From Rhodospirillaceae bacterium SYSU D60007 (GTDB lineage Bacteria; Pseudomonadota; Alphaproteobacteria; Reyranellales; Reyranellaceae), in contig QOCQ01000034.1 in NCBI GenBank assembly GCA_003574685.1, forward strand, positions 1 to 38,755: 38,755 nucleotides of DNA, read 5' to 3'. Numbering within the stretch: the stretch's first letter is position 1; the number at the start of each line of letters is the position of its first letter. A program made the translations under genes and the position numbers. The notes beneath the pieces are model-generated. The model was not told the DNA's origin. It was given only the letters and a program-made list of their open reading frames with translations, and did no database searches. Positions 2 to 26,082 of the stretch are shown in pieces.

Positions 2-769
2 TGGCGGCAGCGAGACCCCGACTTCGCGCGGCAATGGGACGACGCAACGACAGCCGCCACCGAGGCGATGGAGGACGAGGCGCTGCGCCGGGCGCTCGAG
101 GGCGTCGAAAAGCCGGTATTCTATCGCGGCAAGCAGGTCGGCTCGTTCAGGAGCTACAACGACCGTCTGCTGATGCTGCTGTTGCAGCGTCGCCGGCCGT
201 CTCCGGACCAGCAGGAAGCCCTGCGCGTCGCCGAGGCGCAGCTCGGCGCGCGCCTGAAGGCGGTGGAGCAGCGCGAGGCCGCGGTGCGGGAACGCGAGGA
301 AGTCTTGCGCAAAATGTCTCCCACTGTCTCCCAAAGCTGTCTTCCCCCGGAGGGGGAAGGTGGCGCGCAGCGCCGGAAGGGGGATGCCGCCACAAGCACG
401 GGCGCCGCACGTGTTGCACCATCCCCCTTCCGCCCCTTCGGGGCACCTTCCCCCTGCGGGGGAAGGCCGATGATTCTGTCTCCCGCTGTCTCCGTTCCCG
501 CCAGGCCACCCGTTCTGTCTCCGACTGTCTCCGTTCCATCGCATGCGCAGCAAGGCACAGCTTTAAAAGCGGCTGCTGGGAGCGCGGGCATCTTGCCTGG
601 CATCTTGCCCGCATCGGCGGGCGGGACGCCCGCGCTCCCGGCAAACGCCCTGTTTCTGTCTCCGACTGTCTCCGTTCCGCCCCGGACCCCGGTCCTGGCG
701 ATCGTTGACCACGTATACGGACGCCAATATGTGCGTAACCTGAAGCCGCTTTGGGTTAACGCCGCATGA
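2..769 (+). CDS. Terminase-small-subunit-like protein, 5'-truncated, with repeat-built C-terminus
   Basis: The frame is open from the left edge, so the true start lies outside the window. The first ~75 residues (WRQRDPDFARQWDDA..., then LRRALEGVEKPVFYRGKQVG and SYNDRLLMLLLQRR) resemble the middle and end of phage-terminase-small-subunit-like or HTH proteins common in alphaproteobacterial genomes; the DNA-binding N-terminus would be upstream. A charged, probably coiled-coil stretch follows (about 230-305). From 314 on the protein is made of repeats: four SPTVS-type units, a 126-bp palindromic element read through in frame, and a second inverted repeat. The last ~25 residues (from about 690) are non-repetitive and look unrelated to the family. 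Seen: open frame and repeats. Inferred: family and that the tail is acquired. The gene may be a phage remnant; no other phage gene is visible. Confidence 0.5.
   Translation, partial: WRQRDPDFARQWDDATTAATEAMEDEALRRALEGVEKPVFYRGKQVGSFRSYNDRLLMLLLQRRRPSPDQQEALRVAEAQLGARLKAVEQREAAVREREEVLRKMSPTVSQSCLPPEGEGGAQRRKGDAATSTGAARVAPSPFRPFGAPSPCGGRPMILSPAVSVPARPPVLSPTVSVPSHAQQGTALKAAAGSAGILPGILPASAGGTPALPANALFLSPTVSVPPRTPVLAIVDHVYGRQYVRNLKPLWVNAA
341..466. repeat. Palindromic intergenic-type repeat, copy 1 (inside a gene)
   Basis: Each end is a self-complementary block of the form CTTCCCCC...GGGGGAAG. Inside these lie GGAAGGGGGAT and its complement ATCCCCCTTCC, so the whole element can fold into a long cruciform. 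The left inner tip is GGCGCGCAGCGCC and the right inner tip is GCCCCTTCGGGGC; each is a hairpin by itself. The centre carries GCCACAAG and GTGTTGCAC. A second copy lies at 31502-31642. Here the element is translated as part of the partial gene without breaking the frame. No transposase is encoded, so it resembles a REP/MITE-like repeat. Confidence 0.8.
578..639. repeat. GC-rich inverted repeat, second repeat family
   Basis: A perfect 12-bp inverted repeat, GGGAGCGCGGGC at 578-589 and GCCCGCGCTCCC at 628-639, encloses nested GCCCGC/GCGGGC arms and a duplicated GCATCTTGCC word. Read in frame it encodes Ala-Gly-Ile-Leu-Pro and Gly-Gly-Thr-Pro-Ala-Leu-Pro stretches, a signature of a widespread bacterial palindromic repeat. 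It sits between the third and fourth LSPTVSVP units. Confidence 0.65.
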
Positions 770-794
770 GAAATCCGGGCCAGGCGGGGCAGGC

Positions 795-2234
795 ATGCAT
801 CTCGGAATCGATGTAGGGACCTCAAGCGTCAAGGCGGTGCTGGTCGATGAGGCGGACCGGATCATCGCCGAGGCCGCTCATGCTGTGCCGATCTCGCGGC
901 CGCGATCCCTGTGGTCGGAGCAGGACCCGCAGGACTGGTGGGACGCCACATGCGCAGCGCTCGACCGCCTGGCGGCAGATGCACCGCAGTCCATGGCGGC
1001 GGTGAAGGGCATCGGCCTCTCCGGGCAGATGCTGGGGGTGACGCTTCTCGACGCCGCCGACCGGCCTATCCGTCCCGCCTTGCTGTGGGACGACGGACGT
1101 GCGGGTGACGAATGTAAACTGCTGCATGAGCGGTTCGCCGACTTTCCGGACATCGTGGGCTGTCGCGCGATGCCCGGTTTCAGCGCGCCCAAGCTGCTGT
1201 GGCTGGCGCGCCACGAGCCCGAAGCGCTGCGGCGTACCCGGCGCATCCTCCTGCCCAAGGATTATGTGCGCCTGCAGCTCACGGGCGACGCCGCGAGCGA
1301 CCGTGCCGATTCGTCTGCGACGCTGCTCATGGACACGCGCGAGGGTGATTGGCATGACGGCATCGTCGGCTTCTGCGGCATCGAGCGCGCCTGGTTGCCA
1401 CGTCTGGCAGAGAGCACGGACATCACCGGGGTTGTGCGGCCGGATCTGGCCACACGCTGGCAGCTCGACCGTCAAACGCCCGTGGTCGGCGGCGGTGGCG
1501 ACAACATGTGCGCGGGTGTCGGGGTCGGCGCGGTCCGCGCGGGCGAGGGTTACATCAGTCTCGGGACTTCGGGGGTCTATTTCATTGCCAACGACGCCTT
1601 CGTGCCGGCGCGCGGCGGCGGCATGCATACCCACCGGCACGCGGTGTCGGGGCTGTTCGCGCAGCACGCCGTGGTTCTCAGCGCGGCCGGCAGCCTCGCA
1701 TGGGTCGCGAGGCTGCTGGGCGCGCAGGATGTTGGTGCGCTCATCGCGCGCGTGGAAGCCGCCGGTCTCTCGCCCGCGGAGACGCCGGTCTTTACGCCGT
1801 ATCTGGCGGGCGAACGCACGCCGCACGACGATCCGCATCTGACGGCGACGTTCTCCTGCCTGACCTATGCCACCGGTCCGCTGCATCTGGTGCAGGCGGT
1901 TCTGGAAGGTGTCGCATTGGCGCTGGCCGACGGTCACGAGGCGCTGCGCGCCAGCGGCGCCAGCGCCCGCCGGCTCGTCCTTACCGGAGGCGGTAGCCGC
2001 AGCCGCCGCTGGGCAGAGCTGATCGCGAGCGCCCTTGGCGTGCCGCTCGTGATCCATGCCACGTCGCGGGAAGGTCCGGCTCTGGGCGCCGCACGGCTGG
2101 CGCGGCAGGGCACCGGCGGACCCCTCATCGCGCGCATGTCACCCGATGCAAGGTTTATTGAACCTGACCCGGGACTGCGCGCGGCGCTGCTCGCCAAACG
2201 CGACGCCTTCCGGGCGCACCTTCAGCCTGGTTAG
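795..2234 (+). CDS. xylB: Xylulokinase (FGGY family)
   Basis: This cytoplasmic kinase should phosphorylate D-xylulose to xylulose 5-phosphate with ATP, feeding the pentose phosphate pathway. The 479 residues match the usual XylB length. The N-terminal actin-like phosphate motif GIDVGTSSVKAVLVD is at 4-18. A substrate-side segment GIGLSGQMLG is at 72-81 and LLWDDGRAGDE near 96-106. GGGGDN at 232-237 carries the probable catalytic Asp236, and LGTSG at 256-260 and LTGGGSRSRRWAEL near 395-408 form the C-terminal ATP lobe. The start directly precedes the glycine-rich FGGY opening; the ribosome site is weak (GGGGCAGGC). The next gene starts 3 nt after the stop, so the two are probably co-transcribed. 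No xylose isomerase or sugar permease is nearby, so the exact ketose (xylulose, ribulose or another) is inferred from family resemblance only. Confidence 0.9.
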   Translation: MHLGIDVGTSSVKAVLVDEADRIIAEAAHAVPISRPRSLWSEQDPQDWWDATCAALDRLAADAPQSMAAVKGIGLSGQMLGVTLLDAADRPIRPALLWDDGRAGDECKLLHERFADFPDIVGCRAMPGFSAPKLLWLARHEPEALRRTRRILLPKDYVRLQLTGDAASDRADSSATLLMDTREGDWHDGIVGFCGIERAWLPRLAESTDITGVVRPDLATRWQLDRQTPVVGGGGDNMCAGVGVGAVRAGEGYISLGTSGVYFIANDAFVPARGGGMHTHRHAVSGLFAQHAVVLSAAGSLAWVARLLGAQDVGALIARVEAAGLSPAETPVFTPYLAGERTPHDDPHLTATFSCLTYATGPLHLVQAVLEGVALALADGHEALRASGASARRLVLTGGGSRSRRWAELIASALGVPLVIHATSREGPALGAARLARQGTGGPLIARMSPDARFIEPDPGLRAALLAKRDAFRAHLQPG

Positions 2235-14213: not shown

Positions 14214-16217
14214 TCAAAACTGGAAACTTGTGGCCACCTTGAGGTTCAGGCCGGGATACAGGTTGGGGGTGAGATGGTCGCGGTATCGCTGGTCCGTGAG
14301 ATTGTCGATCCCGATATCAACGCGTGCGCCGTAGAGCGGACCCGCCGAGGGCAGCCAGCTCGCGAAGATGTCGAACAGGGCATACCCGCCGGTCTTGCTG
14401 ACGCCCGCCGGCACCCGGTGCTGATGCGCCACCAGCCGGGTACGGCCACCGATCACCAGATCCCAGTCCGGGATCTGGTAGCCCACTGTCAGCGCGATCT
14501 TGTCGGCGGGAATTGACGCCAGCGGCTCGCCGGTCGTCCGGTTCTTGCCGCGGATCAGCGACGCCGCCAGCGTGCCGAACCAGTTGCCGCTCGTGTACCC
14601 GCCTTCAAACTCCACACCATAGATGCGGGCGCGCGTGACGTTGACCGGCGTGGTCGTGGTGGGGGTGACGACCAGGTCGATGAAGTCGCGATAGTTCGTA
14701 TGGAAACCCGAAACGCGAAACCGCAACCTGTCGCCGGCCTGGAACGCGTCGTCGAATTTGAAGGCGACGCCGATCTCCTTGTTCTTGCCGATCTCGGGCT
14801 TCAGGTTCGGGTTCGGGATGAAAAAATTGCCGGGAAAGTGCGTGCCCGACACGTAAAGCTCGGACAGCGAAGGGGCACGGAAAGCCTCGGCATAGAGCGC
14901 GTAGACCGACAGCCACTTCGTGGCATCCCACTGCGCGCCAATGCGCGGCGAGACGCGGCTTTCGGACAGCGATGGTCCGACGGCAGGGGAGTCGGGCGTG
15001 CGATAGTAGTAGTCGAGCCGCAAACCGGGAGTCAGGCTGACGGCGTCCCAGAGCCTGATCTCCGGTTGCACGAAAGCGCCTGCGACCTGGCCCCAGCCAT
15101 CCGGATACTCCGGCCGGGAAATGCTGTCGCGATTCCCGTCAGTTGATTCGATTCGGCCGTCAACGCCATAGGTGATGGCCAGGCCGACGGCGTCGGATAC
15201 CTTGAACCGGCTGGTGTTCTGAATGTCGATGCCGGTGGTGCGCAGCGCCGTTTCGTCCAGCCGCGGACCGGGCTGCAGGCGGTCTTCCCGTACGTAGACC
15301 CGGTTGTGATAGGCGACGGCCTTAAGGTCGAGCCACGGATTCGAGGGATTCTTCAGCTCGTAGTTCAGCGCGCCGGTGAATTGCTGCGTCTTGCGGTCGG
15401 CGGGCGAGGAGGTGCTGGCGGTGTTCGGCGCGGTCGTCGAGATGTCGTGGTCGTTGAAGGCGATCAGGGACATTCCCAGCCGGTGTCCTGGATCGAAGGT
15501 GTATCTGCCCTTAACCAGCCCGCTTACGACCTCCGCGCCGGAATTGGCGAGGTGGCCCGGGCCGCCGAACTTGTAGTCGTCGCTGTTGCGGTATGTCAGC
15601 GCACCCAGCAGATCGAATCCGGCGACGTTGGCGAAGCCCACGAACTGGGCCATCACCATGTCGTTGACCGACTGATAGCCGGTCTTGAGCCGATAACCGG
15701 CCCTTTCGCCGGGCCGCAGGAAGTCCGATGCATCGCGCATGGTGATGTCGATCACGCCGCCCACCGCGCCCGAGCCGTAGAGGACCGAGTTGGGGCCGCG
15801 CACCACATCGACCTGCTTGATCAGGTCCGGGTCGAGAAAGATGCGGCCCTTGTGGCCGGACTGGAAATCCTGGCGGGCGCCGTCAAGCCGGATCAGTACG
15901 CGCTCGCCCTCCAGCCCGCGCACGTTGGGTTCTCCTGCGCCCGGCCGGGGGCCGCCGCTGATATCGACGCCCGGCAGATCGCGCAGCAGGTCGTCCAGCC
16001 GCTGCGGCTGGCGCATGTCGATGGTTTCCTTGGTCACGGTCGAGACCGAGCCCGGCACGTCGTACTGCGGCCGTTCGGTGCGCGTTCCCGTCACGGTGAC
16101 GGGGTCCAGCGGGGCCACCGGCACCTGGGCCTGGTCTATGGGCGTGACTTGCGCCACCGCCTCGGTTGCCGACAATGCCACCATTACCATCACCAGAGCC
16201 GAGCCTGATCGCCTCAT
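14214..16217 (-). CDS. hmuR: TonB-dependent outer-membrane haem/haemoglobin receptor
   Basis: This is a 667-residue outer-membrane gated channel that binds haem or haem proteins and admits haem to the periplasm with TonB energy. It has a signal peptide (about 1-22, ending AVAQ), a TonB-box-like region around DPVTVTGTR (38-46), and a plug domain with LLRDLPGVDISGGPRPGAGEP (from 77) and VDVVRGPNSVLYGSGAVGGVIDI (from 136). The rest is a beta-barrel ending in a C-terminal Phe (SFQF). In the barrel, AFRAPSLSELY (445-455) and IPNPNL (467-472) are the FRAP and NPNL motifs of haem receptors. The start at 16217 follows GGGGGAAAC and begins the signal peptide; the open frame to 16265 is leader. It is the first gene of the hmu operon, under the Fur-type box at 16335. 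Confidence 0.95.
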   Translation of the reverse strand: MRRSGSALVMVMVALSATEAVAQVTPIDQAQVPVAPLDPVTVTGTRTERPQYDVPGSVSTVTKETIDMRQPQRLDDLLRDLPGVDISGGPRPGAGEPNVRGLEGERVLIRLDGARQDFQSGHKGRIFLDPDLIKQVDVVRGPNSVLYGSGAVGGVIDITMRDASDFLRPGERAGYRLKTGYQSVNDMVMAQFVGFANVAGFDLLGALTYRNSDDYKFGGPGHLANSGAEVVSGLVKGRYTFDPGHRLGMSLIAFNDHDISTTAPNTASTSSPADRKTQQFTGALNYELKNPSNPWLDLKAVAYHNRVYVREDRLQPGPRLDETALRTTGIDIQNTSRFKVSDAVGLAITYGVDGRIESTDGNRDSISRPEYPDGWGQVAGAFVQPEIRLWDAVSLTPGLRLDYYYRTPDSPAVGPSLSESRVSPRIGAQWDATKWLSVYALYAEAFRAPSLSELYVSGTHFPGNFFIPNPNLKPEIGKNKEIGVAFKFDDAFQAGDRLRFRVSGFHTNYRDFIDLVVTPTTTTPVNVTRARIYGVEFEGGYTSGNWFGTLAASLIRGKNRTTGEPLASIPADKIALTVGYQIPDWDLVIGGRTRLVAHQHRVPAGVSKTGGYALFDIFASWLPSAGPLYGARVDIGIDNLTDQRYRDHLTPNLYPGLNLKVATSFQF

Positions 16218-16334
16218 GTTTCCCCCGCCCCCAACAAGGTGCGCCAACGGATTCGGCGCGCACATGGCTGGCGGGGCAGGAGGCCCAGGCTGGCTATCGA
16301 TTCGCCTCTACCAGACGTGATCTGAGAATGCAAT

Positions 16335-16371: not shown

Positions 16372-16773
16372 ATGAAGATTGATGGCCAGTGCCATTGTGG
16401 CGGCATCCGCTATGAAGCGGAGGTGGACCCCGGACAGGTGTCGATCTGCCACTGCACCGATTGCCAGATGCTGACCGGCTCGCCGTACCGTGTCACGGTG
16501 CTGGCTGCGCGTGAGAACATTCGCCTGAGGGGCGATCCAAAGCTCTACGTCAAGACAGGCGACAACGGCCGCAAGCGCCTTCAGTACTTCTGCGCGGATT
16601 GCGGTTCGCCGCTGTTTACGGCCGGCGATGGCGAGGAAGGGACCGTTTGGGGCATTCGCTGGGGCAGCATTCGCCAGCGTCACGACCTCGCGCCGCGGCG
16701 GCAGATCTGGTGCCGCTCCGCCATCCCGTGGATCCACGACATCCGGGAACTGCCAGCACGCCAGACGGACTGA
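16372..16773 (+). CDS. GFA/CENP-V family zinc protein
   Basis: This is a 133-residue cytoplasmic protein of the glutathione-dependent formaldehyde-activating enzyme (Gfa)/CENP-V fold. Zinc-binding cysteines are visible: Cys7 and Cys9 (GQCHCGGI), Cys26, Cys28 and Cys31 (SICHCTDCQ), and Cys74 and Cys77 (FCADCGSPLF). The CGSPLF motif is a hallmark. True Gfa activity on S-hydroxymethylglutathione has been questioned for many members, so the biochemical role is uncertain. The start is the first Met after the Fur-type box, with AAGGCGG upstream. It is divergent from hmuR, and its promoter must overlap or abut the iron box. Its stop is 15 nt from the convergent hydrolase gene. Confidence 0.88.
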   Translation: MKIDGQCHCGGIRYEAEVDPGQVSICHCTDCQMLTGSPYRVTVLAARENIRLRGDPKLYVKTGDNGRKRLQYFCADCGSPLFTAGDGEEGTVWGIRWGSIRQRHDLAPRRQIWCRSAIPWIHDIRELPARQTD

Positions 16774-16788: not shown

Positions 16789-18174
16789 CTAGTTATGAAA
16801 CTCGGCGATCACCAGGCGGTTTTCCTTTACGGGCCAGGTACGGACCGGGATGGCTTCGAGATTGAAGACGGCGAGCACCGTGCGGACCGGACCGTCCGGC
16901 AGCAGCAGCCTAGCGCTCGACGTGCCGGGCACGCCCTCGTTGACGCCGGGCGGCACCTTGCCGTCGAGCGTGAACTTGTCGCGGCCATGGCCGAAATAGC
17001 CGCGGGGCCGGCTCATGATCACCACCGCGCCGGCCTTCTGGTCGTCCTTTCCGAACCGGCCGGGGCGCAGATGGATCACGTCACTGGAGCGCAGGAAGGG
17101 TGAGCGATAGATGTGGGTGACCGGACTGCCCGGTATCGCGATGACGAACTCGTAGAAGGCGTCCTGACGCCCCTTGAAGGGGCCCCAAACGCCATCAGCG
17201 GCGGTCGTGCGCCGGTGTGCCGGCGTCAGTGTCTTGCGCTCGCCGGTGCGGCCATCGACTTCCCAGATTTCGACGCTCACATCCTGCACCGGCAGGTTGG
17301 TGTAGATCCCGCCCTCGGCGATGCCCGTCACCTTGCCGTTCAGCACCGGCTCGCGTTCGGGCGCGATGAACAGGGTCGCGGCCGGCCGCCCCGCGATGAA
17401 CTCGTACATTCGCTGGAACGCGAGCTTGTCGAACGCCACCTCCCGGTGATCCAGGCCGGGAAGCACCACGTTGATTGCACCCTTCAGTTCTGGCGCGTCG
17501 TAGGAGATGCCGGTCGGCTTGCCGGGCATGCCGATGAACTGTCCGTCCGGCTGGGCATACTTGTCGAGCTTGTCGCTGCGCAGCGTCAGGAACGCCACGC
17601 CGGGCACGGTTTCGAGCGGGCCATTGTTGAGCTGGCGCAGGAAGGGGGCTGCGCCGTTGAACTCGCTGCCCTTCATCTCGGTGTCGGAGACGATCACGCC
17701 GTGATTGGTGGCGCCGCACAGCACGGCATGCGAGGTGAACTCGGCGCCGCCGCCGTTGCTGAGATAGTTGCGGATGGCATTGCCGCCACGCGAGCTGCCG
17801 ACCAGCGCCACCTTCTGGCGCCGGGTGACCGCCAGCACCTTTTTTACGAAGGCGGCCAGCTCTTCGCGCTGGTCGGTGGTCGACGAGCGAAATGGCTGCG
17901 GCCGCGAATCGTCGCTGCGCGCGATGGGATAGGTGAAGTCGATGGCGTGCAGCATGTTGCGCGGCCAGGCGTTCGATTCGAAGCGCCAGATCGTGGTGTG
18001 CCACACGGCCGCCGTGTCGCCGTTGCCGTGCACGAAGACGACAGGCGGCAGCGGCGAGCGTCGTTGATTGCGGCCCGGCGTCTGCTGCGCGTATACCGGC
18101 AGCGACGCGGCGGCGGCCAGACCGCCGGCCAAAACGCCGCGCCGGCCGATGCGGACGGGCAGGTTGCCGGACAT
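16789..18174 (-). CDS. Tat-exported alpha/beta hydrolase (lipase/esterase-like)
   Basis: This is a 461-residue predicted periplasmic or secreted hydrolase. The N-terminus MSGNLPVRIGRRGVLAGGLAAAASLPVYAQ is a Tat-type signal peptide with a twin-arginine and cleavage after YAQ (about 30). The alpha/beta-hydrolase core follows: oxyanion segment VVFVHGNGD (45-53), nucleophile elbow GSSRG (127-131, probable Ser129), and a likely catalytic His near 243 (PGLDHREVAFD). From about residue 260 a beta-rich region follows (KVTGIAEGGIYTNLPVQDVSVEIWEVDG, then HIYRSPFLRSSDVIHLRP), probably an accessory or binding domain. It lies convergent to GFA and divergent from the alkyltransferase gene. Substrate is not evident; a lipase, an esterase or a polyester depolymerase are all conceivable. 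Confidence 0.8.
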   Translation of the reverse strand: MSGNLPVRIGRRGVLAGGLAAAASLPVYAQQTPGRNQRRSPLPPVVFVHGNGDTAAVWHTTIWRFESNAWPRNMLHAIDFTYPIARSDDSRPQPFRSSTTDQREELAAFVKKVLAVTRRQKVALVGSSRGGNAIRNYLSNGGGAEFTSHAVLCGATNHGVIVSDTEMKGSEFNGAAPFLRQLNNGPLETVPGVAFLTLRSDKLDKYAQPDGQFIGMPGKPTGISYDAPELKGAINVVLPGLDHREVAFDKLAFQRMYEFIAGRPAATLFIAPEREPVLNGKVTGIAEGGIYTNLPVQDVSVEIWEVDGRTGERKTLTPAHRRTTAADGVWGPFKGRQDAFYEFVIAIPGSPVTHIYRSPFLRSSDVIHLRPGRFGKDDQKAGAVVIMSRPRGYFGHGRDKFTLDGKVPPGVNEGVPGTSSARLLLPDGPVRTVLAVFNLEAIPVRTWPVKENRLVIAEFHN

Positions 18175-18331: not shown

Positions 18332-18868
18332 ATGGCCCCGTCAAACACCCCGCGCGCCGCACCCACGGTTTTGCTTCCTGCCGCACCGGCCGGCACAGGG
18401 GTTGCGACCGCGCGCGTGCGGCTGGACAGCCCTGTCGGCGGCCTGGAGATCGAAGCGACGGACGAGGCAATCGTTGCCGTGTACTGGGTCGATGACCCGA
18501 GAGGACCACCGGATGTGACAGATCCGCTTCTGACAGAAGCGCGCGATCAGCTCGCAGCCTATTTTGCGTACCGGCTGGCGGCATTCGATCTGCCGCTGGC
18601 GCCGGCGGGCTCGCCTTTCGAACGCGATGTCTGGCGGCAGATGTGCGACATTCCTTTCGGTGAGACGATGACCTATGGCGAAATGGCTACGGCCGTGGGC
18701 GGCATGGCGCGCGCGGTCGGCTCTGCCTGCGGCGCCAACCCCATTCCCGTCATCATTCCCTGCCACCGCGTGCTGGGCGCGGGCAATCGCATGGTGGGCT
18801 ACAGCGGCCGCGGCCGCATTGAAACCAAGCGCTGGCTGCTCGTCCACGAGGGTGCACTGCTGGTCTAG
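18332..18868 (+). CDS. ogt: Methylated-DNA--protein-cysteine methyltransferase
   Basis: This is a DNA repair protein that takes the alkyl group from O6-alkylguanine onto its own cysteine. Its 178 residues comprise an N-terminal domain with SPVGGLEIEATDEAIVAVYW (33-52) and the C-terminal DNA-binding/active-site domain: SPFERDVWRQMCDIPFGETMTYGE from 94, helix-turn-helix region, Asn136, and IIPCHRV with acceptor Cys144 at 141-147, then GYSGRGRIETKRWLL (156-170). All key residues are present. It lacks an AraC-type Ada domain, so it is an Ogt-type enzyme. The start Met has a weak ribosome site; a GTG at about residue 24 is an alternative. Its TAG and that of the convergent hydrolase-like gene share the tetramer CTAG. 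Confidence 0.9.
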   Translation: MAPSNTPRAAPTVLLPAAPAGTGVATARVRLDSPVGGLEIEATDEAIVAVYWVDDPRGPPDVTDPLLTEARDQLAAYFAYRLAAFDLPLAPAGSPFERDVWRQMCDIPFGETMTYGEMATAVGGMARAVGSACGANPIPVIIPCHRVLGAGNRMVGYSGRGRIETKRWLLVHEGALLV

Positions 18869-19770
18869 GTCTCCCCGCTGCGTCGGGTGAGGACAGGAAC
18901 GCGTCGCAGCAGGCGGCGCACCGGCTGGTCGAAGCGGGGCCATCCGGCAGCAACAAGGTCAAGGTGTAGAGACGGATCGCCCACCGGGACGAACGAAGCG
19001 ACGCCCGGCACGAGCCGTCGCGACAACGACTCCCGCACGCGAACCCCGGGCAGCCGCATGGCAGAAAGAGTGCGCATCAGCGCCTGCGTCGGTCCAGCGG
19101 AGGCGTGCTCGTGTTGCCGTCCGCCCGTATAAACGGCCGCTAGGAAGGCATGCCGGTGTTGTGCCGAGAACCACGCAGCGAACGCGTCGGTTTCGCCATA
19201 GATCGTATCGAGGCCAATGAAGCCGATCAGCCGGTCGCCGACGCCACCCAGCGTCAGCGCGCTGGCCGCCGCACGATATCCGCCGCTGAACGACATCAGG
19301 AGAACGGGCGCCTGGTGCAAGACCCGTGCATCCGTTCCGAGTCGCGCGGCGATCCTCGCGCCGGCCTCGTGGAGCCATCGCGCAAAGCCGCCGGGCTGCG
19401 CCAGGTTGCCGGGATGCCCCGGCATACCGACCAGATCGGTATCCGCATCGCGCGCAAATTGCGGTGCGATCACCACCGCGTTGATGCAGGCGGCGTCGAC
19501 TTGTTCGATGAGGCGGTAGGTTTCGACGACATGATAGCGGCTGCCTCCGATACGTTGGCTCAGCGTCGCACACCAGCCATGGAAGAAGGCGATCACGGCG
19601 AAAGGACGCGCTGGATCGAAGCCTGGCGTGACATGCAGCAGCGTCCGCGGGTCATCAAACACGCCATCAGTTCCCGATACGTCCGGGCAGGGAAAGGGAC
19701 CGTGATCCAGGGACTCCACCCGCGGCCAGACGCAGCCATCGAACAGCGGCCCGACGAATCCGCGGTTCAC
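18865..19770 (-). CDS. Alpha/beta-hydrolase-like protein, second of a tandem pair
   Basis: The 301-residue protein is a paralogue of the gene immediately upstream. Shared landmarks are LLHVTPGFDPARPFAVIAFF then HGW (63-66 region), INAVVIAPQFARDAD, the serine motif SFSGGY (160-165, Ser162) and IGLDTIYGE (185-193, Asp188). The serine motif is Phe-Ser-Gly-Gly instead of the usual Gly-x-Ser-x-Gly, so catalysis is plausible but not certain. I chose GTG at 19770 because it forms a GTGA overlap with the stop of the upstream paralogue, and the longer frame to 19944 runs antisense-like through that gene's tail. With this start there is no signal peptide, unlike its neighbour. The region from residue 11 has several cysteines. 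The exact family is not recognised. Confidence 0.72.
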   Translation of the reverse strand: MNRGFVGPLFDGCVWPRVESLDHGPFPCPDVSGTDGVFDDPRTLLHVTPGFDPARPFAVIAFFHGWCATLSQRIGGSRYHVVETYRLIEQVDAACINAVVIAPQFARDADTDLVGMPGHPGNLAQPGGFARWLHEAGARIAARLGTDARVLHQAPVLLMSFSGGYRAAASALTLGGVGDRLIGFIGLDTIYGETDAFAAWFSAQHRHAFLAAVYTGGRQHEHASAGPTQALMRTLSAMRLPGVRVRESLSRRLVPGVASFVPVGDPSLHLDLVAAGWPRFDQPVRRLLRRVPVLTRRSGET

Positions 19771-20864
19771 TTGCGTGTACCCTTGCCCCGGGCAGGTGGA
19801 CGCGCCTTCTTGCTGGCAACCACAGGCCGGCGCGGAACCTGCCGCTGGGGAGGCGGCGGGCGCGTGGCCGCCAGCACAACGCGCACAGGGTCTCGGGGCG
19901 GGCCTTCCAGGACGAATCGTCCATGGCGTTCGATGGGACCGCACGCGACAAAAGCAGCCGTGCCGGGCCTTATCGCGGCAGGCAACGCTGTCGCGCTCGT
20001 GATGCGCCGCGCCCGTAGCCTCTCGATCAGGATGGCCTGCTGGGCCGCCGTGGAATCCGTATAGAGGCTTGTCAGGAAGGCACGCCGGCGGGCGCCGGCA
20101 AACCAGCGCGCATAGCGCTCCTCCTCGCCATAGAGCGCGTCGAGCAGGAGCACGCCCGCGATTCGCGATCCTGCGCCGCCGCGTTCCAGCACGAAGGCCG
20201 CGGGCTTGTATCCGCCGCTGAAGGCCACAAGGATCACCGGGGCGCGGCGCAGGGCGGCGGTGACCGCCGGGCGTTCGGCGCGCGAAGCGGCGATGGCATC
20301 GGTAAGCCGCAGCGCCGCCTCGTCAAGAAACCGGGCAAAGACGCCGGGCTGCCAGAACTTGCCGGGGCTGGAGTCGGCTGCCTCTCGCGCGAATTGCGGC
20401 GCCACCAGCACGGCGTTGATGTCGGCCTGTGCGAGTTGCCGGGTCAGCTCCATGTCCGACACCACCCGGTCGACGGAGCTGCCGTGACCATGGAAGAAGA
20501 CGACCAGATGCGGTGGCCGTCGGGGGTCGAACGTCGCGGGCACGTGCAGCAGGACGCCCGAATCGCTGTAGACGGCATCCTCCCACAACACCTGGCCGTT
20601 CGCGCCAATGCGGCCACGGCGCCGGCCGTTTCGTTCGACAACGTTGAGAAAGGGCGTTTTGCCGTCGTCAGCCGGACCACGATAGGGGAAGGGCGCCCAG
20701 CGGAACGGCAGCACGCGCGTGATGGCCTGACGCGAGGGTGCAGCGGCGCGGGCGGCGCGCTTTACCGGTTTCCTGGCCAGGGCAGCGCCCGGCAGCAGGC
20801 AGAGCGCACCGAGCATCAAGGCAAGTCCGCGCCGCCCCAGCGTCTGACGCGGACCGTCGCCCAT
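19767..20864 (-). CDS. Exported alpha/beta-hydrolase-like protein, first of a tandem pair
   Basis: This is a 365-residue protein with a signal peptide (GRRGLALMLGALCLLPGAALA, cleavage about residue 30; the paired Arg allows Tat export). Core features: LLHVPATFDPRRPPHLVVFF then HGHGSS (125-130), INAVLVAPQFARE, a serine motif AFSGGY (214-219, Ser216) and LLLDALYGE with Asp242. The C-terminal ~40 residues are Pro/Arg/Lys-rich (PPPPQRQVPRRPVV, then KKARPPARGKGTRK), a basic tail that could bind a polyanion, cell wall or membrane surface. It begins 4 nt after the stop of the large membrane gene and overlaps the next paralogue by GTGA, so the three probably form one operon. Hydrolase fold is inferred from the FHG and FSGG landmarks; no substrate can be named. 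Confidence 0.75.
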   Translation of the reverse strand: MGDGPRQTLGRRGLALMLGALCLLPGAALARKPVKRAARAAAPSRQAITRVLPFRWAPFPYRGPADDGKTPFLNVVERNGRRRGRIGANGQVLWEDAVYSDSGVLLHVPATFDPRRPPHLVVFFHGHGSSVDRVVSDMELTRQLAQADINAVLVAPQFAREAADSSPGKFWQPGVFARFLDEAALRLTDAIAASRAERPAVTAALRRAPVILVAFSGGYKPAAFVLERGGAGSRIAGVLLLDALYGEEERYARWFAGARRRAFLTSLYTDSTAAQQAILIERLRARRITSATALPAAIRPGTAAFVACGPIERHGRFVLEGPPRDPVRVVLAATRPPPPQRQVPRRPVVASKKARPPARGKGTRK

Positions 20865-20868
20865 CGTT

Positions 20869-23544
20869 CTAGGCGGCGATGGCCGGCTTTCCCGGGAGCG
20901 GCAGCAGTACCCGGTAAAAGGCGGGGATGGCCACGAGATAGGCGATGCCGCCGACCAGCAACGCGGCCGGCAGCCCGAACGAGGTCGAAATGATCGGCAC
21001 CAGCGCTGCGCCCAGCACCGAGAACGAGCCGTTGATGCCCCAGGCCCACAGGAACATGTGGTCCTTGCCCAGCCGGCCCAGCATGGTCATGCCGGTGGGC
21101 ATGGGAAACCCCATCAGGAAGGCGGGCGGGAAGATGATCGCGAGGCAGGCGATGATGCGCAGCGCGTAGGGCAGGGTGCCGACGGCGTCCAGCACCGGGT
21201 CGAGCAGGAAGCCATAGGCGATCAGCAGTGCGCCGATGGCGACGAACACCTTGGGCATGAAGGTGCGGGCGCGGCCGAGGAAGCGCTCCGAGACGAAGCT
21301 GCCCAGGCCCGAGAACACCAGCATGCCGGTGATCAGCACCGAGGCCGAGACGGTGGCGTTGCTGAGCGCCAGCATGAAATGGCTGATCAGGCCGACCTCG
21401 ACCACGATGTAGCCCAGCCCCAGGCAGAGGAAATAGACCATGGTGCCGAACTTGCCGGGGTAGCGGCTGAAGATGGTGCGCCAGCCGAAGACGACCGGGA
21501 ACAGCACCAGTGTCAGCGCGGCTACGCCCGCAATCGCCAGCGTCGCCCACAGCAGAAGGAAGCCCCACTCATCCTGCACCAGCTCCAGCCGGTCGGTGAA
21601 CTTCAGCAGGTCCTTCACCTTGATGTAGGCGGCGAAGTAGGGCTGATGGTTGGTGAGGATGCGCGTGTCGAAGACATAGCGGTTGGCAACCTGCTCGATG
21701 CCGCCATGGATCAGATGATGCCACCACAGGCGGCCGATATCCGTGGCGGGGACCTTGGGCACCGTGACGGTTTGCGGCTGCCCTTCCTTGTCGCCGCCCT
21801 CGGGACCGGCGGGCGCAGCATCGGTGGGCGCGCGCTCGAGTGCCGGGTCGGATCCCAGGGGATCCTGCGGCGCGCCATCATAGAAGAACTGGTCGTGGTA
21901 GCCTTTCAGTGTCGGTTCGAGCAGCGACAGATCCGCCTTGAAGCCAGGCGAGTAGATCTCGTCGAACGACATCGCGGCCGTGTGCTTGCGCAGCGTCTCG
22001 ACCTCGGCGGGCGTGAAGCCGCCGCGCTTGAAGAGCACCGTAGCCGTCGAGAGATAGCTGGCGCCGACGAAGAAGCGGTCGGCGACATCCTGGCCTTCGA
22101 CGTCGCGGGCGGCGGCGACCATGGTCGAATACAGCTTCAAGACCGACTTGGGCGGCTCCTCCTTGTTCCACAATGTTACCGCCAGCACGCCGCCCGGCTT
22201 CAGCGCCTGCATGTAGTTGCGCATCGCCTCGCGCGTGTAGCTGAACTTCTCGACGATGGCGAAGCCGCCGGGCTGCGACAGCCCCGCCGAATCCGCAAGT
22301 GCGAGGTCAATCACGTCGAACTTGCGTTTGGTGCGGGCGGCATAGAGTCGGCCTTCGTAATCGATAACCTCGATGCGCTCGTCGCCCAGGATGTCGCCGG
22401 TAAATCTCTTCAGCTCGTCATCGTGCAGGAAGGCGTTGAGCACCATGGGGTTGCCCTCGGCCACCGTGACGCTCTTCGAGCCCGCCCGCAGTGCCATTGC
22501 CGTCGACAATCCGCCGCCGAATTGCACCACGAATGTCTCGGGGTTCTTCTTCACGACGTAGGGGTAGTACATCATGAGGAAGCGGAAATACGCCGTCTGG
22601 GAGTCGGGCAGCTGCTTGATGATGCCGCTGGGCCCTTCGCTGTCGATGTACATGCCGCGATAGGCCCGGCTCGGCATTTCCGGCAGGTTGAAGGCGGCGT
22701 TGTCGGACTGGCCCGGCGCGAAGTGCAGATAGGAGCTGTCGTAGATCTCCATGTAGCCGAACGGCGTGCTGCGTTCGTAGACACGCTCTGCGTCCGGGAA
22801 CTTGCGGGCGTAGGCGACGCCCTTGTAGTCGCTGACCGCGATCTTCGGGATGTCAAGCAATGGCGGCAGGGCAAGATGGCCGCCGACAGCCAGCACTGCC
22901 GCGACCGTCGTCTGAATGAGTCCGCGGCGATCCGACACGGCCACGAACCACAGCAGGCTGCCCAGGAACCACAGCACCAGGGGGGCGATGACCAGGTTCT
23001 GCGGCCTGAACAGATACATCGCCAGCAGGAAGAGCAGGCCGCAGGCGCCCGATCCGGCGAGGTCGGCAAAGTAGACCCGGTTGAAGGTCTTCTGCGCCTT
23101 CAGGAACACAACCCCCAGGTAGAGGGCACCGCACAGGAAGGGCAGGAAATAGAGGACGAAGTTGGCGAACAGCCGCCATTTCTGGACCGGATCGGATACC
23201 AGGAAGATGGCGTTAAACGGCACCTGCTGCGCGATCAGGTTCGAGGCGACCATCATGGGCCCGAACAGCAGCAGGGCACCCTTCACGGCGCCGCGCCAAT
23301 GCTTCTCGAACCACGGCTTGCCCACGCACATCACGGCGCTGGTCAGCCCGAAGCCGAACATGGCGAGGCTCACCACCAGCGAGCCGAAATGCGCCCAGCT
23401 TCCGACCGAGAAGATGCGCATGATGCCGATCTGCAGGGCGATCACGCATCCGGCGATCAGCGCGACCGACAGATAGAAAGCCAGCGACGGCCTGTTGTCG
23501 AAGTCGACATCCGGCAGGATGCCGGCGGACGCCTTGAGAGCCAT
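20869..23544 (-). CDS. Large membrane protein with embedded spermidine-synthase-like (SAM-binding fold) domain
   Basis: This 891-residue protein has three parts. Residues ~20-225 contain about six or seven membrane helices (LAFYLSVALIAGCVIALQIG, SLVVSLAMFGFGLTSAVMCV and others). Residues ~240-520 form a Rossmann domain like spermidine synthases: FVVQFGGGLSTAMAL (338-352) matches the nucleotide-binding GGG loop, VTVAEGNP (359-366) the acidic strand end, KFDVIDLALADS (408-419) the catalytic-loop region, and LKPGGVLAVTLWN (448-460) a late strand. Residues ~560-600 are a Pro/Gly linker, and ~660-885 hold about seven more helices. The GGGDGG and DSTDP signatures of true spermidine synthase are altered, so polyamine synthesis should not be assumed. 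This membrane-plus-aminopropyltransferase-fold architecture is known but poorly characterised. It heads a probable three-gene operon with the two hydrolase-like genes. Confidence 0.85.
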   Translation of the reverse strand: MALKASAGILPDVDFDNRPSLAFYLSVALIAGCVIALQIGIMRIFSVGSWAHFGSLVVSLAMFGFGLTSAVMCVGKPWFEKHWRGAVKGALLLFGPMMVASNLIAQQVPFNAIFLVSDPVQKWRLFANFVLYFLPFLCGALYLGVVFLKAQKTFNRVYFADLAGSGACGLLFLLAMYLFRPQNLVIAPLVLWFLGSLLWFVAVSDRRGLIQTTVAAVLAVGGHLALPPLLDIPKIAVSDYKGVAYARKFPDAERVYERSTPFGYMEIYDSSYLHFAPGQSDNAAFNLPEMPSRAYRGMYIDSEGPSGIIKQLPDSQTAYFRFLMMYYPYVVKKNPETFVVQFGGGLSTAMALRAGSKSVTVAEGNPMVLNAFLHDDELKRFTGDILGDERIEVIDYEGRLYAARTKRKFDVIDLALADSAGLSQPGGFAIVEKFSYTREAMRNYMQALKPGGVLAVTLWNKEEPPKSVLKLYSTMVAAARDVEGQDVADRFFVGASYLSTATVLFKRGGFTPAEVETLRKHTAAMSFDEIYSPGFKADLSLLEPTLKGYHDQFFYDGAPQDPLGSDPALERAPTDAAPAGPEGGDKEGQPQTVTVPKVPATDIGRLWWHHLIHGGIEQVANRYVFDTRILTNHQPYFAAYIKVKDLLKFTDRLELVQDEWGFLLLWATLAIAGVAALTLVLFPVVFGWRTIFSRYPGKFGTMVYFLCLGLGYIVVEVGLISHFMLALSNATVSASVLITGMLVFSGLGSFVSERFLGRARTFMPKVFVAIGALLIAYGFLLDPVLDAVGTLPYALRIIACLAIIFPPAFLMGFPMPTGMTMLGRLGKDHMFLWAWGINGSFSVLGAALVPIISTSFGLPAALLVGGIAYLVAIPAFYRVLLPLPGKPAIAA

Positions 23545-23614
23545 GCGAGGGGGTCCGTTCGTTCAGTGGCGGCCAAGCCGCAGAAAGCACTCTATGTCAG
23601 CAATGTGAAAACAC

Positions 23615-23652
23615 GAGGGCCCCCGCACCGGATCGACGGGTGCGGAGGCCTC
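23615..23652 (-). terminator. Intrinsic terminator of the exported methyltransferase gene
   Basis: The segments 23615-23629 and 23639-23652 pair in a long GC-rich stem (CCGCACC with GGTGCGG, extended by GAGG/CCTC and one bulged base) around a 9-nt loop. Read on the minus strand, it is followed by GTGTTTTC. It begins 17 nt after the stop of the methyltransferase gene and separates it from the next gene on the same strand. Confidence 0.75.
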
Positions 23653-23668
23653 GCGAAAGTGCCGGTAC

Positions 23669-24535
23669 TCAGCGATTGTGGGTACCCTTGACCTCGCCGT
23701 CGACCAGCTTGGTGAAGGGCACGAAGGGCACGATCCTGCCGCCGTAGATGTCCTCGCGGGTGACGGTGATGTTGCCGTCGGCGGCGACCTGCTTGACGAC
23801 CTTCAGCACGCGCTGGGCGCCCGGCGGGCCGACGGGGATGACCATCACCCCGCCGGGCTTGAGCTGCTGCAGCAGCGGCGGCGGGATGTGGTCGATGCCG
23901 CAGGTGACGATGATCTTGTCGAAGGGACCCGCTTCCGGCCATCCGTAGTAGCCGTCCGCCTGCTTGGTCTTGATGACCTTGAGTTCCTCGTAGCCGGCGG
24001 CGATCGCCTTGTCATAGACGCCGCGCGTGCGTTCGGCCAGCGGCGCGATGATCTCGATCGTGTAGACCTGGTCCGTGAGCTGCGCGAGATAGGCCGACTG
24101 CGTGCCCGAGCCGGTACCGATCTCCAGCACCCGGTCGCCGCGCTTGACATCAAGCACGTCGGTCATGCGGCTCTGCAGATGCGGACCGGACATGGTGACG
24201 CCGTATCCCATGTCGAGGAAGGCGTGCTCGTAGCCGCGCTCCTTGACCGGCGGATTGCCGGCGGCGAAGACCTCGCGCGGAGTCAGCAGGAAAGCGCGCT
24301 TCATCTTGTCGGTCTTGATGTCGCCCACGCGGACGGCGGCGACATAGCGGTTCCAGCGCTGGGTGAGCCACTTTTCGCTCTCGCCGCGATTGGCCTTCAT
24401 CCAGTCGACATAGTTTTCCTTCGAGTCCATCGGCGGCGTCTGGTCGACCCGGATGGGCTTGAATTGCGCCGTTGCCGGCAATGCCAGGAGTGTCACGAAG
24501 AGGGCCGTAACCCCGGCTGTGATAGCACGCCGCAT
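23669..24535 (-). CDS. Exported protein-L-isoaspartate O-methyltransferase homologue
   Basis: This 288-residue protein is of the PCMT family, which methylates isoaspartyl residues of damaged proteins using S-adenosylmethionine (SAM). Unusually it begins with a clear signal peptide (MRRAITAGVTALFVTLLALP, then ATAQ, cleavage about residue 24), so it is predicted to be periplasmic. The family core is preserved: a MSGPHLQSRMTDVL segment (115-128, equivalent to the substrate loop), SAM motif VLEIGTGSGTQSAYLAQL (136-153), acidic Glu161 after the second strand, DGYYGWPEAGPFDKIIVTCG (194-213) and LKPGGVMVIPVG (225-236). An N-terminal extension (25-110) is longer than in E. coli Pcm. The gene is monocistronic by the look of its terminator. 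Sec export of a SAM-dependent enzyme is puzzling because SAM is cytoplasmic; membrane anchoring by an uncleaved signal is an alternative. Confidence 0.85.
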   Translation of the reverse strand: MRRAITAGVTALFVTLLALPATAQFKPIRVDQTPPMDSKENYVDWMKANRGESEKWLTQRWNRYVAAVRVGDIKTDKMKRAFLLTPREVFAAGNPPVKERGYEHAFLDMGYGVTMSGPHLQSRMTDVLDVKRGDRVLEIGTGSGTQSAYLAQLTDQVYTIEIIAPLAERTRGVYDKAIAAGYEELKVIKTKQADGYYGWPEAGPFDKIIVTCGIDHIPPPLLQQLKPGGVMVIPVGPPGAQRVLKVVKQVAADGNITVTREDIYGGRIVPFVPFTKLVDGEVKGTHNR

Positions 24536-24670: not shown

Positions 24671-25909
24671 CTATGTGTATTTGCGGATGTCGTCCACCAC
24701 CTTGCCGTCGTTTGGCAGGCTGCCGGCGGGCACGAATTCGACCTTGCCCCGCACCTTGCAGACGTTCTGCACGGTTCCCTCGACCGCTTTCGTCAGGTCC
24801 GCGGCAGCATTGCCGGCCAGCTCGGCTTTCAGGGTCATGACGTCCTGCTGGTCCACCCAGTTGACCACCATCCGCAGGCGGCCCAGTTCCGGATGACGCC
24901 GGGCGATCAGCGCGATCTGCTCGGGATCGACGAACATTCCCTTGACCTTGGTGCGCTGGTCGGCGCGGCCCATCCAACCCTTGATGCGCATGTTGGTGCG
25001 ACCGCAGGGGCTCACCCCCGGCAGGACAGCGGAAAGGTCGCCGGTGCCAAAGCGCACCAAGGGATAGGCCTTGCTGAAGGTGGTGACCACGACCTCGCCA
25101 ACCTCGCCCTCGGGGACCGGATCGCCGGTTCCCGGCCGCACGATCTCCACCACGACGCCCTCGTCGACGATCATGCCCTCCAGGGCCTCCGATTCGTAGG
25201 CGATGGTGCCCAGATCGGCCGTCCCGTAGCTCTGGAGGGTCGCAATCCCCCGGTCGCGGAACATCTGGCGCAACGAGGGCGGCAGTGCCTCGGCGCCAAC
25301 GAACGCCTTCTTCAGCGAGGAAACGTCCTTGCCCAGCTCCGCGCCCTTCTCGAGCAGGATCTTGAGGAAGGACGGCGTGCCGACATAGCCCACCGGCCGG
25401 ATCGCCTCGATGGCGTCGAGCTGCAGTTCGGTCTGGCCCACGCCGCCGGGCACCACGACGCAGCCCAACGCCCGGGCGGCTGTCTCCATCATGAGGCCGG
25501 CCGGCGTCAGGTGATACGAATAGGTATTGTGCACGACATCGCCGGCGCGGAAGCCCGCCGCGTACATCGCCCGCGCACCCCGGAAATAGTCCTTTTCGGC
25601 GGTGTCGACCTCGAAGATCGGGCCGGGGGACATGAAGATATGCAGCGCCTGCGAGAGGGGGACAGCCAGCAATCCGCCCATGGGCGGATTCTTCTTCTGC
25701 ACGGCGCCGAGATTGGTTTTGCGCAGCACCGGCAGCTTCGCCAGCGCGGCCCGGCTGGTCACTGCCGCGGGATCCACATCCTTGAGCCAGTCGGCGAAGA
25801 ACGGCGCGTTGGCCCTGGCGTGCGCGATCTGGGCGGGCAGGGCGGCGGCCAGCGCCTGCTCGCGTTCGTCGGCCGAACGGGTCTCCAGCGAATCGTAGTG
25901 CCTGGACAT
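24671..25909 (-). CDS. PaaK-like AMP-dependent acyl-CoA ligase with altered P-loop
   Basis: This is a 412-residue protein of the phenylacetate-CoA ligase family, expected to activate a carboxylic acid to its CoA thioester. Recognisable: ELQLDAIEAIRPVGYVGTPSFL, GAEALPPSLRQMF, the adenine/substrate motif SYGTADLGTIAYES, the hinge PLVRFGTGDLSAVLPG, CGRTNMRIKGWMGRADQRTK, and KVKGMFVDPEQI. The N-terminal phosphate loop SSGTTGKP of PaaK is absent; at its place is FMSPGPIFEVD. This change occurs in a known alphaproteobacterial subgroup whose activity I cannot state. Start at 25909 has GGAGG upstream and matches the conserved opening; an in-frame ATG at 25927 is possible. It lies on the liv strand but is separated from livF by three plus-strand genes. 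Confidence 0.82.
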   Translation of the reverse strand: MSRHYDSLETRSADEREQALAAALPAQIAHARANAPFFADWLKDVDPAAVTSRAALAKLPVLRKTNLGAVQKKNPPMGGLLAVPLSQALHIFMSPGPIFEVDTAEKDYFRGARAMYAAGFRAGDVVHNTYSYHLTPAGLMMETAARALGCVVVPGGVGQTELQLDAIEAIRPVGYVGTPSFLKILLEKGAELGKDVSSLKKAFVGAEALPPSLRQMFRDRGIATLQSYGTADLGTIAYESEALEGMIVDEGVVVEIVRPGTGDPVPEGEVGEVVVTTFSKAYPLVRFGTGDLSAVLPGVSPCGRTNMRIKGWMGRADQRTKVKGMFVDPEQIALIARRHPELGRLRMVVNWVDQQDVMTLKAELAGNAAADLTKAVEGTVQNVCKVRGKVEFVPAGSLPNDGKVVDDIRKYT

Positions 25910-26082
25910 CGCTCGCGCGCCTCCCATGCGCTGGCCTGAGGATCGGTTGGCGCACAGGATTTCAGCAACACCGGCGGCGCGCAAGCCGGGCAACGGCCAT
26001 GTTTGCGTGTCGCTGCCGGAACTTCCCCGGCGCCCCATCGTTGCCACATGCGGACGTTCTTCCCAGGATTGAGGAGCGCGAT

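Follow-up and report, generated by a model that had tools for sequence, protein, structure and literature searches.

A conserved gene unit encoding a PCMT-family methyltransferase with a predicted export signal and a SAM-fold membrane protein, with a possible role in extracytoplasmic methylation

The stretch of DNA analyzed here, called the window below, covers positions 1–38,755 of contig QOCQ01000034.1 of Rhodospirillaceae bacterium SYSU D60007 (family Reyranellaceae, assembly GCA_003574685.1; 38,755 nt in total; G000:C28 in our numbering). It contains four genes arranged head-to-tail on the minus strand, which encode a PCMT-family methyltransferase with a predicted export signal (P0001), a membrane protein with an S-adenosylmethionine (SAM)-fold domain (P0002) and two alpha/beta-hydrolase-like proteins (P0003 and P0004). 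The genes of the PCMT, the membrane protein and the first hydrolase are a conserved unit. Its core is the pair of PCMT and membrane protein, which the hydrolase often joins as a third member. The fourth gene is a local duplicate. Tentatively, the locus was interpreted as an extracytoplasmic unit of SAM-dependent methylation, in which the membrane protein would supply or present SAM. Within this interpretation, the SAM supply, the substrate and the role of the esterase are what we infer.

Conservation and co-occurrence of the genes

Coordinates, translations and profile matches indicated that all four genes expected in the original prediction are present on the minus strand, namely the genes of the PCMT (23669–24535), the membrane protein (20869–23544), hydrolase 1 (19767–20864) and hydrolase 2 (18865–19770). 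The last three genes had been described as tightly coupled, and this can be read directly from the sequence: the membrane gene and the hydrolase 1 gene are separated by a 4-nt gap (20865–20868), and the GTG start of the hydrolase 2 gene overlaps the TGA stop of the hydrolase 1 gene in a GTGA (19767–19770).

To evaluate the gene order, we scanned named genomes, which yielded at least 569 related loci, and used the 80 best of these, a sample that leans to close relatives; those closest to the window belong to Reyranella and Reyranella-like metagenome-assembled genomes (MAGs). Of the 76 loci testable for the PCMT (the other four were cut), 74 have its gene immediately upstream of the membrane gene; of the 75 testable for the hydrolase (five were cut), 63 have its gene downstream, including L153, L170 and L187, which were counted as matches though the hydrolase gene is cut by the contig end. 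In the 76 genomes of the order, a search at E 0.001 or better revealed the membrane protein in 74 genomes (a few, e.g., G006, with a paralogue only), hydrolase 1 in 70 and the PCMT in all 76, cytosolic paralogues included. Among the 30 best membrane-protein loci of the order, 25 had full flanks, and each of these 25 contained both the PCMT and the hydrolase. According to the record titles, the carriers include Reyranella (with Reyranella massiliensis), Mesorhizobium loti and other Mesorhizobium, Prosthecomicrobium hirschii, Lichenibacterium ramalinae, Methylocapsa and Roseiarcus fermentans, as well as MAGs labelled Burkholderiales, Gammaproteobacteria, Riflebacteria and Acidobacteria, although MAG labels may be wrong. 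Since M. loti and R. massiliensis are among the named carriers, culture tests should be feasible.

A class-level search of 337 alphaproteobacterial genomes, in which only the best few candidates per genome were scored, gave matches of the membrane protein in 46 genomes: four belong to the family of the window, another 18 match at E 2e-19 or better, and 24 have weak domain matches only. The PCMT gene adjoins the membrane gene in 14 of these 18 genomes, including nine of the 12 more divergent ones. Close orthologues of the membrane protein were found in 10 of the 337 genomes, and high-scoring exported-type PCMTs were found in exactly the same ten, counting G259, in which the two genes lie apart. 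Reciprocal co-occurrence had been suggested as a check of the original prediction, and its outcome supports the pair. For a random placement of ten carriers the probability would be about 2e-19; the true value is less extreme because the genomes are related (there are four family labels among the ten). The cut-offs behind the two sets were placed at score gaps after the scores were seen (for the PCMT, 389.8 bits and a second copy at 322.8 bits, with the next match at 180.2; for the membrane protein, E 1.9e-236, with the next match at 8.1e-78). The conserved neighbourhood of the PCMT, membrane and hydrolase genes, together with the reciprocal occurrence, led us to reject a chance adjacency.

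The same genome contains a second locus (G000:C20; L092:5005-9272) with a divergent relative of the membrane protein (826 aa, 25% identical in alignment A2). Its gene is followed by two PCMT genes (PF01135), and the start of the first of these overlaps the membrane gene by an ATGA; the N-termini of both products were read by eye as export signals. Comparable pairs of membrane and PCMT genes were found at L093, L094 and L095, besides the nine divergent class-level loci mentioned above. The two PCMTs of the second locus may be specialized for different substrates. In G198:C369 (L141, L260), a cassette resembling peptide-type ATP-binding cassette (ABC) transporter genes lies between the genes of the exported-type PCMT and the membrane protein (open reading frames (ORFs) read by eye), and it could hint at a peptide substrate.

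The region between the PCMT and membrane genes of the window encodes an RNA hairpin on the minus strand (23607–23655; −33.4 kcal/mol, z −4.67, 0 of 200 shuffles equally good), which is terminator- or attenuator-like. A terminator had been proposed at 23615. The strong hairpin is confirmed and is a possible terminator; its tail (UUUUC) is short, and a simple terminator scan did not list it. The separate regulation of the PCMT gene deduced from it would be local at most: in 10 of 74 loci the PCMT gene may overlap the membrane gene in the 4-nt manner, and the genes of the second locus do overlap.

Of the 25 largest neighbour clusters that were listed, the majority occurred in Reyranella-like loci or in Mesorhizobium-like loci only; those of wider distribution, read by eye and without profiles, looked like transport genes or shadow ORFs. 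No fourth conserved neighbour that could be a candidate substrate was found among these 25 clusters.

Properties of the encoded proteins

Modeling of the membrane protein P0002 (891 aa) with AlphaFold2 from 42 sequences (pLDDT 86.7, pTM 0.86) led to a model with seven transmembrane helices, a soluble domain of approximately 430 residues and seven further transmembrane helices. By sequence, the relation to spermidine synthases is slight (Pfam Spermine_synth, E 0.037, below the cut-off), and the NCBIfam profile for polyamine aminopropyltransferases gave 16.9 bits at a curated cut-off of 472. The best structural match obtained with VIA-align was SV2A (9okg; Z 26.2, 356 residues, root-mean-square deviation (rmsd) 3.4, range 12..891), followed by spermidine synthases with Z up to 19.4 (3anx; 258 residues, rmsd 3.4), and the 50 matches listed by plain Foldseek were spermidine synthases and related aminopropyltransferases. 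According to the model, the soluble domain is spermidine-synthase-like by fold, as had been predicted, and the membrane part resembles a major facilitator superfamily (MFS) transporter.

The short loops on the N-terminal side showed an excess of Lys and Arg in 42/42 homologues (14 versus 3 in P0002) when the helix limits were taken from the AlphaFold2 model, and loop averages over an alignment of 26 sequences, divergent relatives included, showed the same alternation of charge. This positive-inside bias puts the soluble domain on the periplasmic side, so the SAM-fold domain of P0002 is predicted to face the periplasm. Both this location and the likeness of the membrane part to a transporter go beyond the original prediction.

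The loop glycines 344–345 of the SAM-fold domain are present in 42/42 homologues and Glu363 in 40/42. Residue 346 is Leu or Ile in all 42; that is, the acidic residue with which spermidine synthases bind decarboxylated SAM (dcSAM) is missing. The column aligned to the catalytic Asp of the D-S-x-D loop contains Ser in 40 homologues and Ala in two, in a part where the alignment is weak (24.3 bits); the catalytic role of this Asp is the one that we take it to have in the T. maritima spermidine synthase. Many further columns of the domain are invariant.

The PCMT-family protein P0001 (288 aa) matched PF01135 (E 1.6e-40; 139.6 bits at a cut-off of 20.3), its best PDB match was 4l7v (E 7.1e-30), and it retains the SAM motif VLEIGTGSG. 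When 22 partner PCMTs were aligned with five of the cytosolic type, and when a profile was aligned to PDB enzymes, the partner PCMTs proved to keep motif I and the substrate-binding core (T-[IM]-S-x-P and V-x-F-V-x-[FL]). The best NCBIfam equivalog score of P0001 was below the cut-off (NF001453, 164.8 versus 188 bits), so this protein is a member of the PCMT fold family whose identity as an isoaspartyl-repair enzyme is putative. Weaker NCBIfam matches were FxLD and ATP-grasp methyltransferases.

The hydrophobic N-terminus of P0001 (residues 4–22) looks by eye like a Sec signal sequence (MRRAITAGVTALFVTLLALPATAQ). Signal-like N-termini were called in 69/74 partner PCMTs versus 0/6 cytosolic-type PCMTs by a rule of hydropathy and charge that was devised for this analysis and used in place of SignalP; thus, the exported methyltransferase of the original prediction holds as a prediction. 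The five partners without a call are L187, which is cut before its start, L152, which begins at a contig edge with a hydrophobic stretch there, L151, which was missed by the motif pattern, and L154 and L167, in which a hydrophobic stretch does not pass the rule. A loose twin-arginine pattern was present in 54/74 partner PCMTs, e.g., MKRRDFLALSAGAAAFSILPA (its chance level was not estimated and the controls were not scanned). In the sole genome of another family within the order (G001:C130; L099:1459-2406), an additional, weakly PCMT-like gene lies directly upstream of the PCMT gene, and its product is 29.7% identical to P0001 over 185 residues.

The AlphaFold2 model of hydrolase 1 (P0003, 365 aa; pLDDT 89.3) was closest in fold to feruloyl esterases (Z about 16). 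P0003 had no match in Pfam and no sequence match in the PDB, and the hydrolase profile likewise had no PDB match. Ser216, Asp242, His314, His125 and Gly126 are invariant in 34 aligned sequences; this conservation and the fold suggest a putative catalytic triad Ser216-Asp242-His314 and an oxyanion HG at 125–126.

P0003 has a signal-like N-terminus, and no hydrophobic N-terminus was seen in P0004 (301 aa), in agreement with the predicted pair of hydrolase-like paralogues, one with a signal. The two proteins share 39% identity across 262 columns (E 7e-44), and P0004 retains the Ser, Asp and His of the triad in the motifs SGGY, LDT and LHLD. Among the 76 genomes of the order, an adjacent second hydrolase copy was found only in the window genome and three congeners; the named scan adds L174, which is a MAG that lies very close to the window and may be among those genomes. 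The single envelope system proposed for all four genes is supported for three of them, on gene order and reciprocal co-occurrence, and not for hydrolase 2, the local duplicate. In seven other genomes of the order, a second and weaker match to the hydrolase lies on a different contig, away from the operon. These homologues, in G045:C160, G049:C100 and G035:C35 (L096–L098) and in four more genomes, are 28–35% identical to P0003. An HD-domain-like gene (read by eye; L192:3776-4327 and similar) forms a neighbour cluster of 22 Reyranella-like loci; at the six distances shown, no more than a few nucleotides separate it from where the hydrolase match ends.

Next to the hydrolase 2 gene, the window contains a convergent gene of O6-methylguanine-DNA methyltransferase (18332–18868, plus strand; PF01035, E 9.6e-30), a methyl-repair gene for which no evidence ties it to the four-gene unit. 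It is preceded by a gene for another alpha/beta-hydrolase on the minus strand (16789–18174). This protein has a lipase C-terminal domain (PF18067, E 3.6e-26), and its start, GRRGVLAGG, looks twin-arginine-like by eye. A GFA-domain protein of the glutathione-dependent formaldehyde-activating family (16372–16773, plus strand; E 9.9e-31) and, after the hydrolase gene, a TonB-dependent receptor (14214–16265; PF00593, E 2.9e-58) are also encoded. Upstream of the PCMT gene there is a gene for an AMP-binding enzyme (24671–26047, minus strand; PF00501, E 9.5e-15), and genes of similar appearance make up a neighbour cluster of 13 loci, each of them Reyranella-like.

Proposed mechanism and rival explanations

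In the proposed mechanism, the membrane protein would transport SAM through the inner membrane, probably exchanging it for S-adenosylhomocysteine (SAH), or would bind SAM and present it in the periplasm, with the SAM-fold domain serving as a periplasmic binding or hand-over site toward the PCMT. The exported PCMT would then form methyl esters on carboxyl groups, isoaspartyl or other, of proteins in the periplasm or the outer membrane. The hydrolase could cleave such a methyl ester or one related to it, and the result would be a writer–eraser pair or a complete repair cycle; alternatively, it could act as an esterase on the repaired site. A SAM/SAH exchanger is the simplest proposal that uses all of the anatomy. 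A broader claim can be built on it, namely that a periplasmic SAM pool exists in many alphaproteobacteria and apparently also in some beta- and gammaproteobacteria represented by MAGs. This pool would be fed by a dedicated MFS-type SAM/SAH exchanger with its own periplasmic SAM-binding domain, and the exported PCMT and the exported esterase would draw on it for reversible carboxyl methylation, or for isoaspartyl repair, of envelope proteins. Taken as a whole, this joint claim is rather doubtful. If it were true, a repair or signalling chemistry would be available to envelope proteins, which are beyond the reach of repair from inside.

Several observations weigh against the methylation unit with its own SAM supply. 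The PCMT is absent in 2/76 testable named loci (L184, L202), and no PCMT was found in G364 and G388 within the stretch fetched around the membrane gene; in G198 it lies approximately 5 kb from the membrane gene, and in G259 the exported-type PCMT is located on a separate contig and is not a neighbour of the membrane gene. The hydrolase is missing in 12/75 testable named loci. At E 1e-5 or better it was found in seven class genomes, which are only six of the ten pair carriers and G380, where the match is partial (E 2.2e-39) and neither the membrane-protein nor the PCMT list has an entry; in G222 and G399 it lies away from the pair. The hydrolase is therefore not essential to the pair. In addition, the fold of P0003 is nearest to feruloyl esterases and similar enzymes and not to methylesterases specifically. 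The MFS likeness of P0002 comes from one AlphaFold2 model and one high-ranking entry (9okg); hhalign detected no sequence similarity between the two seven-helix halves, the Pfam and NCBIfam matches of the 42 homologues included no MFS profile, and other transporter folds were hardly probed, since all entries after SV2A in the VIA-align list were spermidine synthases. Finally, twin-arginine export of a folded PCMT could bring along bound SAM, enough for one turnover only, with no transporter involved.

The chief rival explanation, which we regard as unlikely, takes the membrane protein itself for a methyltransferase of an envelope protein or lipid, similar to the fungal N-terminal histidine methyltransferase (NHMT); the PCMT would be a second enzyme or a repair partner for the same substrate, and SAM would arrive by an unrelated route or through the helices of P0002. 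This would agree with the residue at the acid of GxG(D/E)G, which is Ile in NHMT (PMC10349129) and Leu or Ile in every P0002 homologue, with the Ser or Ala in the catalytic-Asp column and with the many other invariant columns of the domain, as expected of an active site. However, NHMT ends at the methyltransferase domain, and P0002 adds a second set of seven helices. An exported-type PCMT accompanies the close orthologue in all ten class genomes, which suggests dependence rather than a free-standing enzyme, and three second-locus relatives that are without part of the active-site region (alignment A2) nevertheless keep their PCMT partner. A further rival, which we consider improbable, assigns to the unit the production or export of a small molecule or peptide that is methylated, with the membrane protein as an MFS-like exporter and with the PCMT-fold enzyme and the esterase finishing the product outside. 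The MFS-like fold, the secreted esterase-like hydrolase, the PCMT homologues in peptide-maturation systems (the FxLD and ATP-grasp matches) and the ABC-like genes of G198 are in line with it, but no recurring biosynthetic gene was seen by eye beside the trio among the 25 clusters listed, and the PCMT would still require SAM outside.

It is less probable still that both the PCMT-fold protein and the SAM-fold domain have ceased to use SAM for methyl transfer and serve nucleoside binding or the scavenging of SAM, methylthioadenosine (MTA) or related compounds from outside, with the membrane protein as an importer and a bound ester as the substrate of the hydrolase. The anatomy of P0002 would be the same in an importer whose binding domain lies in the periplasm, and SAM is, to our knowledge, not known in the periplasm; however, the partner PCMTs keep motif I and the substrate-binding core, both of which a binding-only enzyme would be expected to lose. 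An accidental adjacency of genes for ordinary polyamine synthesis and cytosolic repair is very improbable. Profiles named after aminopropyltransferases do match up to 39/42 homologues at E 1 or better (best 1.8e-8), but P0002 scores far under the curated cut-off, the dcSAM-binding acid and the catalytic Asp are gone, adjacency and reciprocal occurrence are conserved, and one clear match to Spermine_synth lies elsewhere in the window genome (C8, 190.9 bits). Ordinary polyamine synthesis was rejected on the missing acidic and catalytic residues and the low scores.

Comparison with known systems

SAM-dependent enzymes are expected in the cytoplasm, the site of SAM synthesis, and SAM is not known to be present in the periplasm. 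The conserved operon thus raises the question of whether SAM occurs outside the inner membrane and by what route. A search of open-access full-text literature, with subscription papers and preprints outside its scope, revealed, among the papers listed, no description of an exported PCMT with a spermidine-synthase-like membrane partner: the component families are known, and their arrangement and cellular location are undescribed in the searchable open-access literature.

The fold of the soluble domain is common to P0002, SpeE and the membrane-fused spermidine synthases of NCBIfam PRK03612, named 'fused MFS/spermidine synthase'. P0002 differs from them in the absence of the dcSAM acid and the catalytic Asp and in the position of the domain between two seven-helix blocks, where it is predicted to be extracytoplasmic. 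SV2A, the closest structural match, also has a large extracytoplasmic inserted domain; P0002 has 14 helices compared with the 12 of SV2A and other MFS proteins, and its inserted domain has the SAM fold. Pairs of a SAM-dependent carboxyl methyltransferase and an ester-removing hydrolase are represented by CheR/CheB, LCMT-1/PME-1 and BioC/BioH, all of which act in the cytoplasm, whereas P0001 and P0003 are predicted to be exported and the methylesterase role of P0003 is putative.

The partner PCMTs resemble Pcm/PIMT (PF01135) in the profile, in motif I, in the T-[IM]-S-x-P region and in the C-terminal V-x-F-V-x-[FL], and the Q-T-I-S-Q-P of PIMT is replaced in them by V-T-[IM]-S-G-P-H. Unlike Pcm/PIMT, P0001 has an export signal and a membrane partner, and 135 residues precede its motif I versus 82–87 in the shortest cytosolic-type PCMT frames. 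The R. palustris PCMT RPA2580 was reported to be important for survival in growth arrest and is said to be without substrate-binding residues (PMC5705917).

The nearest known architecture is that of NHMT (AN4663), which methylates the N-terminal histidine of fungal lytic polysaccharide monooxygenases; its seven transmembrane helices are followed by a spermidine-synthase-like methyltransferase domain in which Ile replaces the Asp/Glu of GxG(D/E)G (PMC10349129). Its authors raise the question of how SAM is supplied in the secretory pathway (PMC10349129), and a bacterial answer on extracytoplasmic SAM would bear on the same open question in the endoplasmic reticulum (ER). NHMT and P0002 are alike in architecture, namely in the seven N-terminal helices, in the spermidine-synthase-like domain, which in P0002 is predicted to lie on the trans side, and in the missing acid. 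NHMT is an enzyme of the fungal ER that has no second seven-helix block and for which the available part of PMC10349129 mentions no PCMT or hydrolase partner, whereas P0002 is bacterial, continues with seven further helices and is encoded together with both partners.

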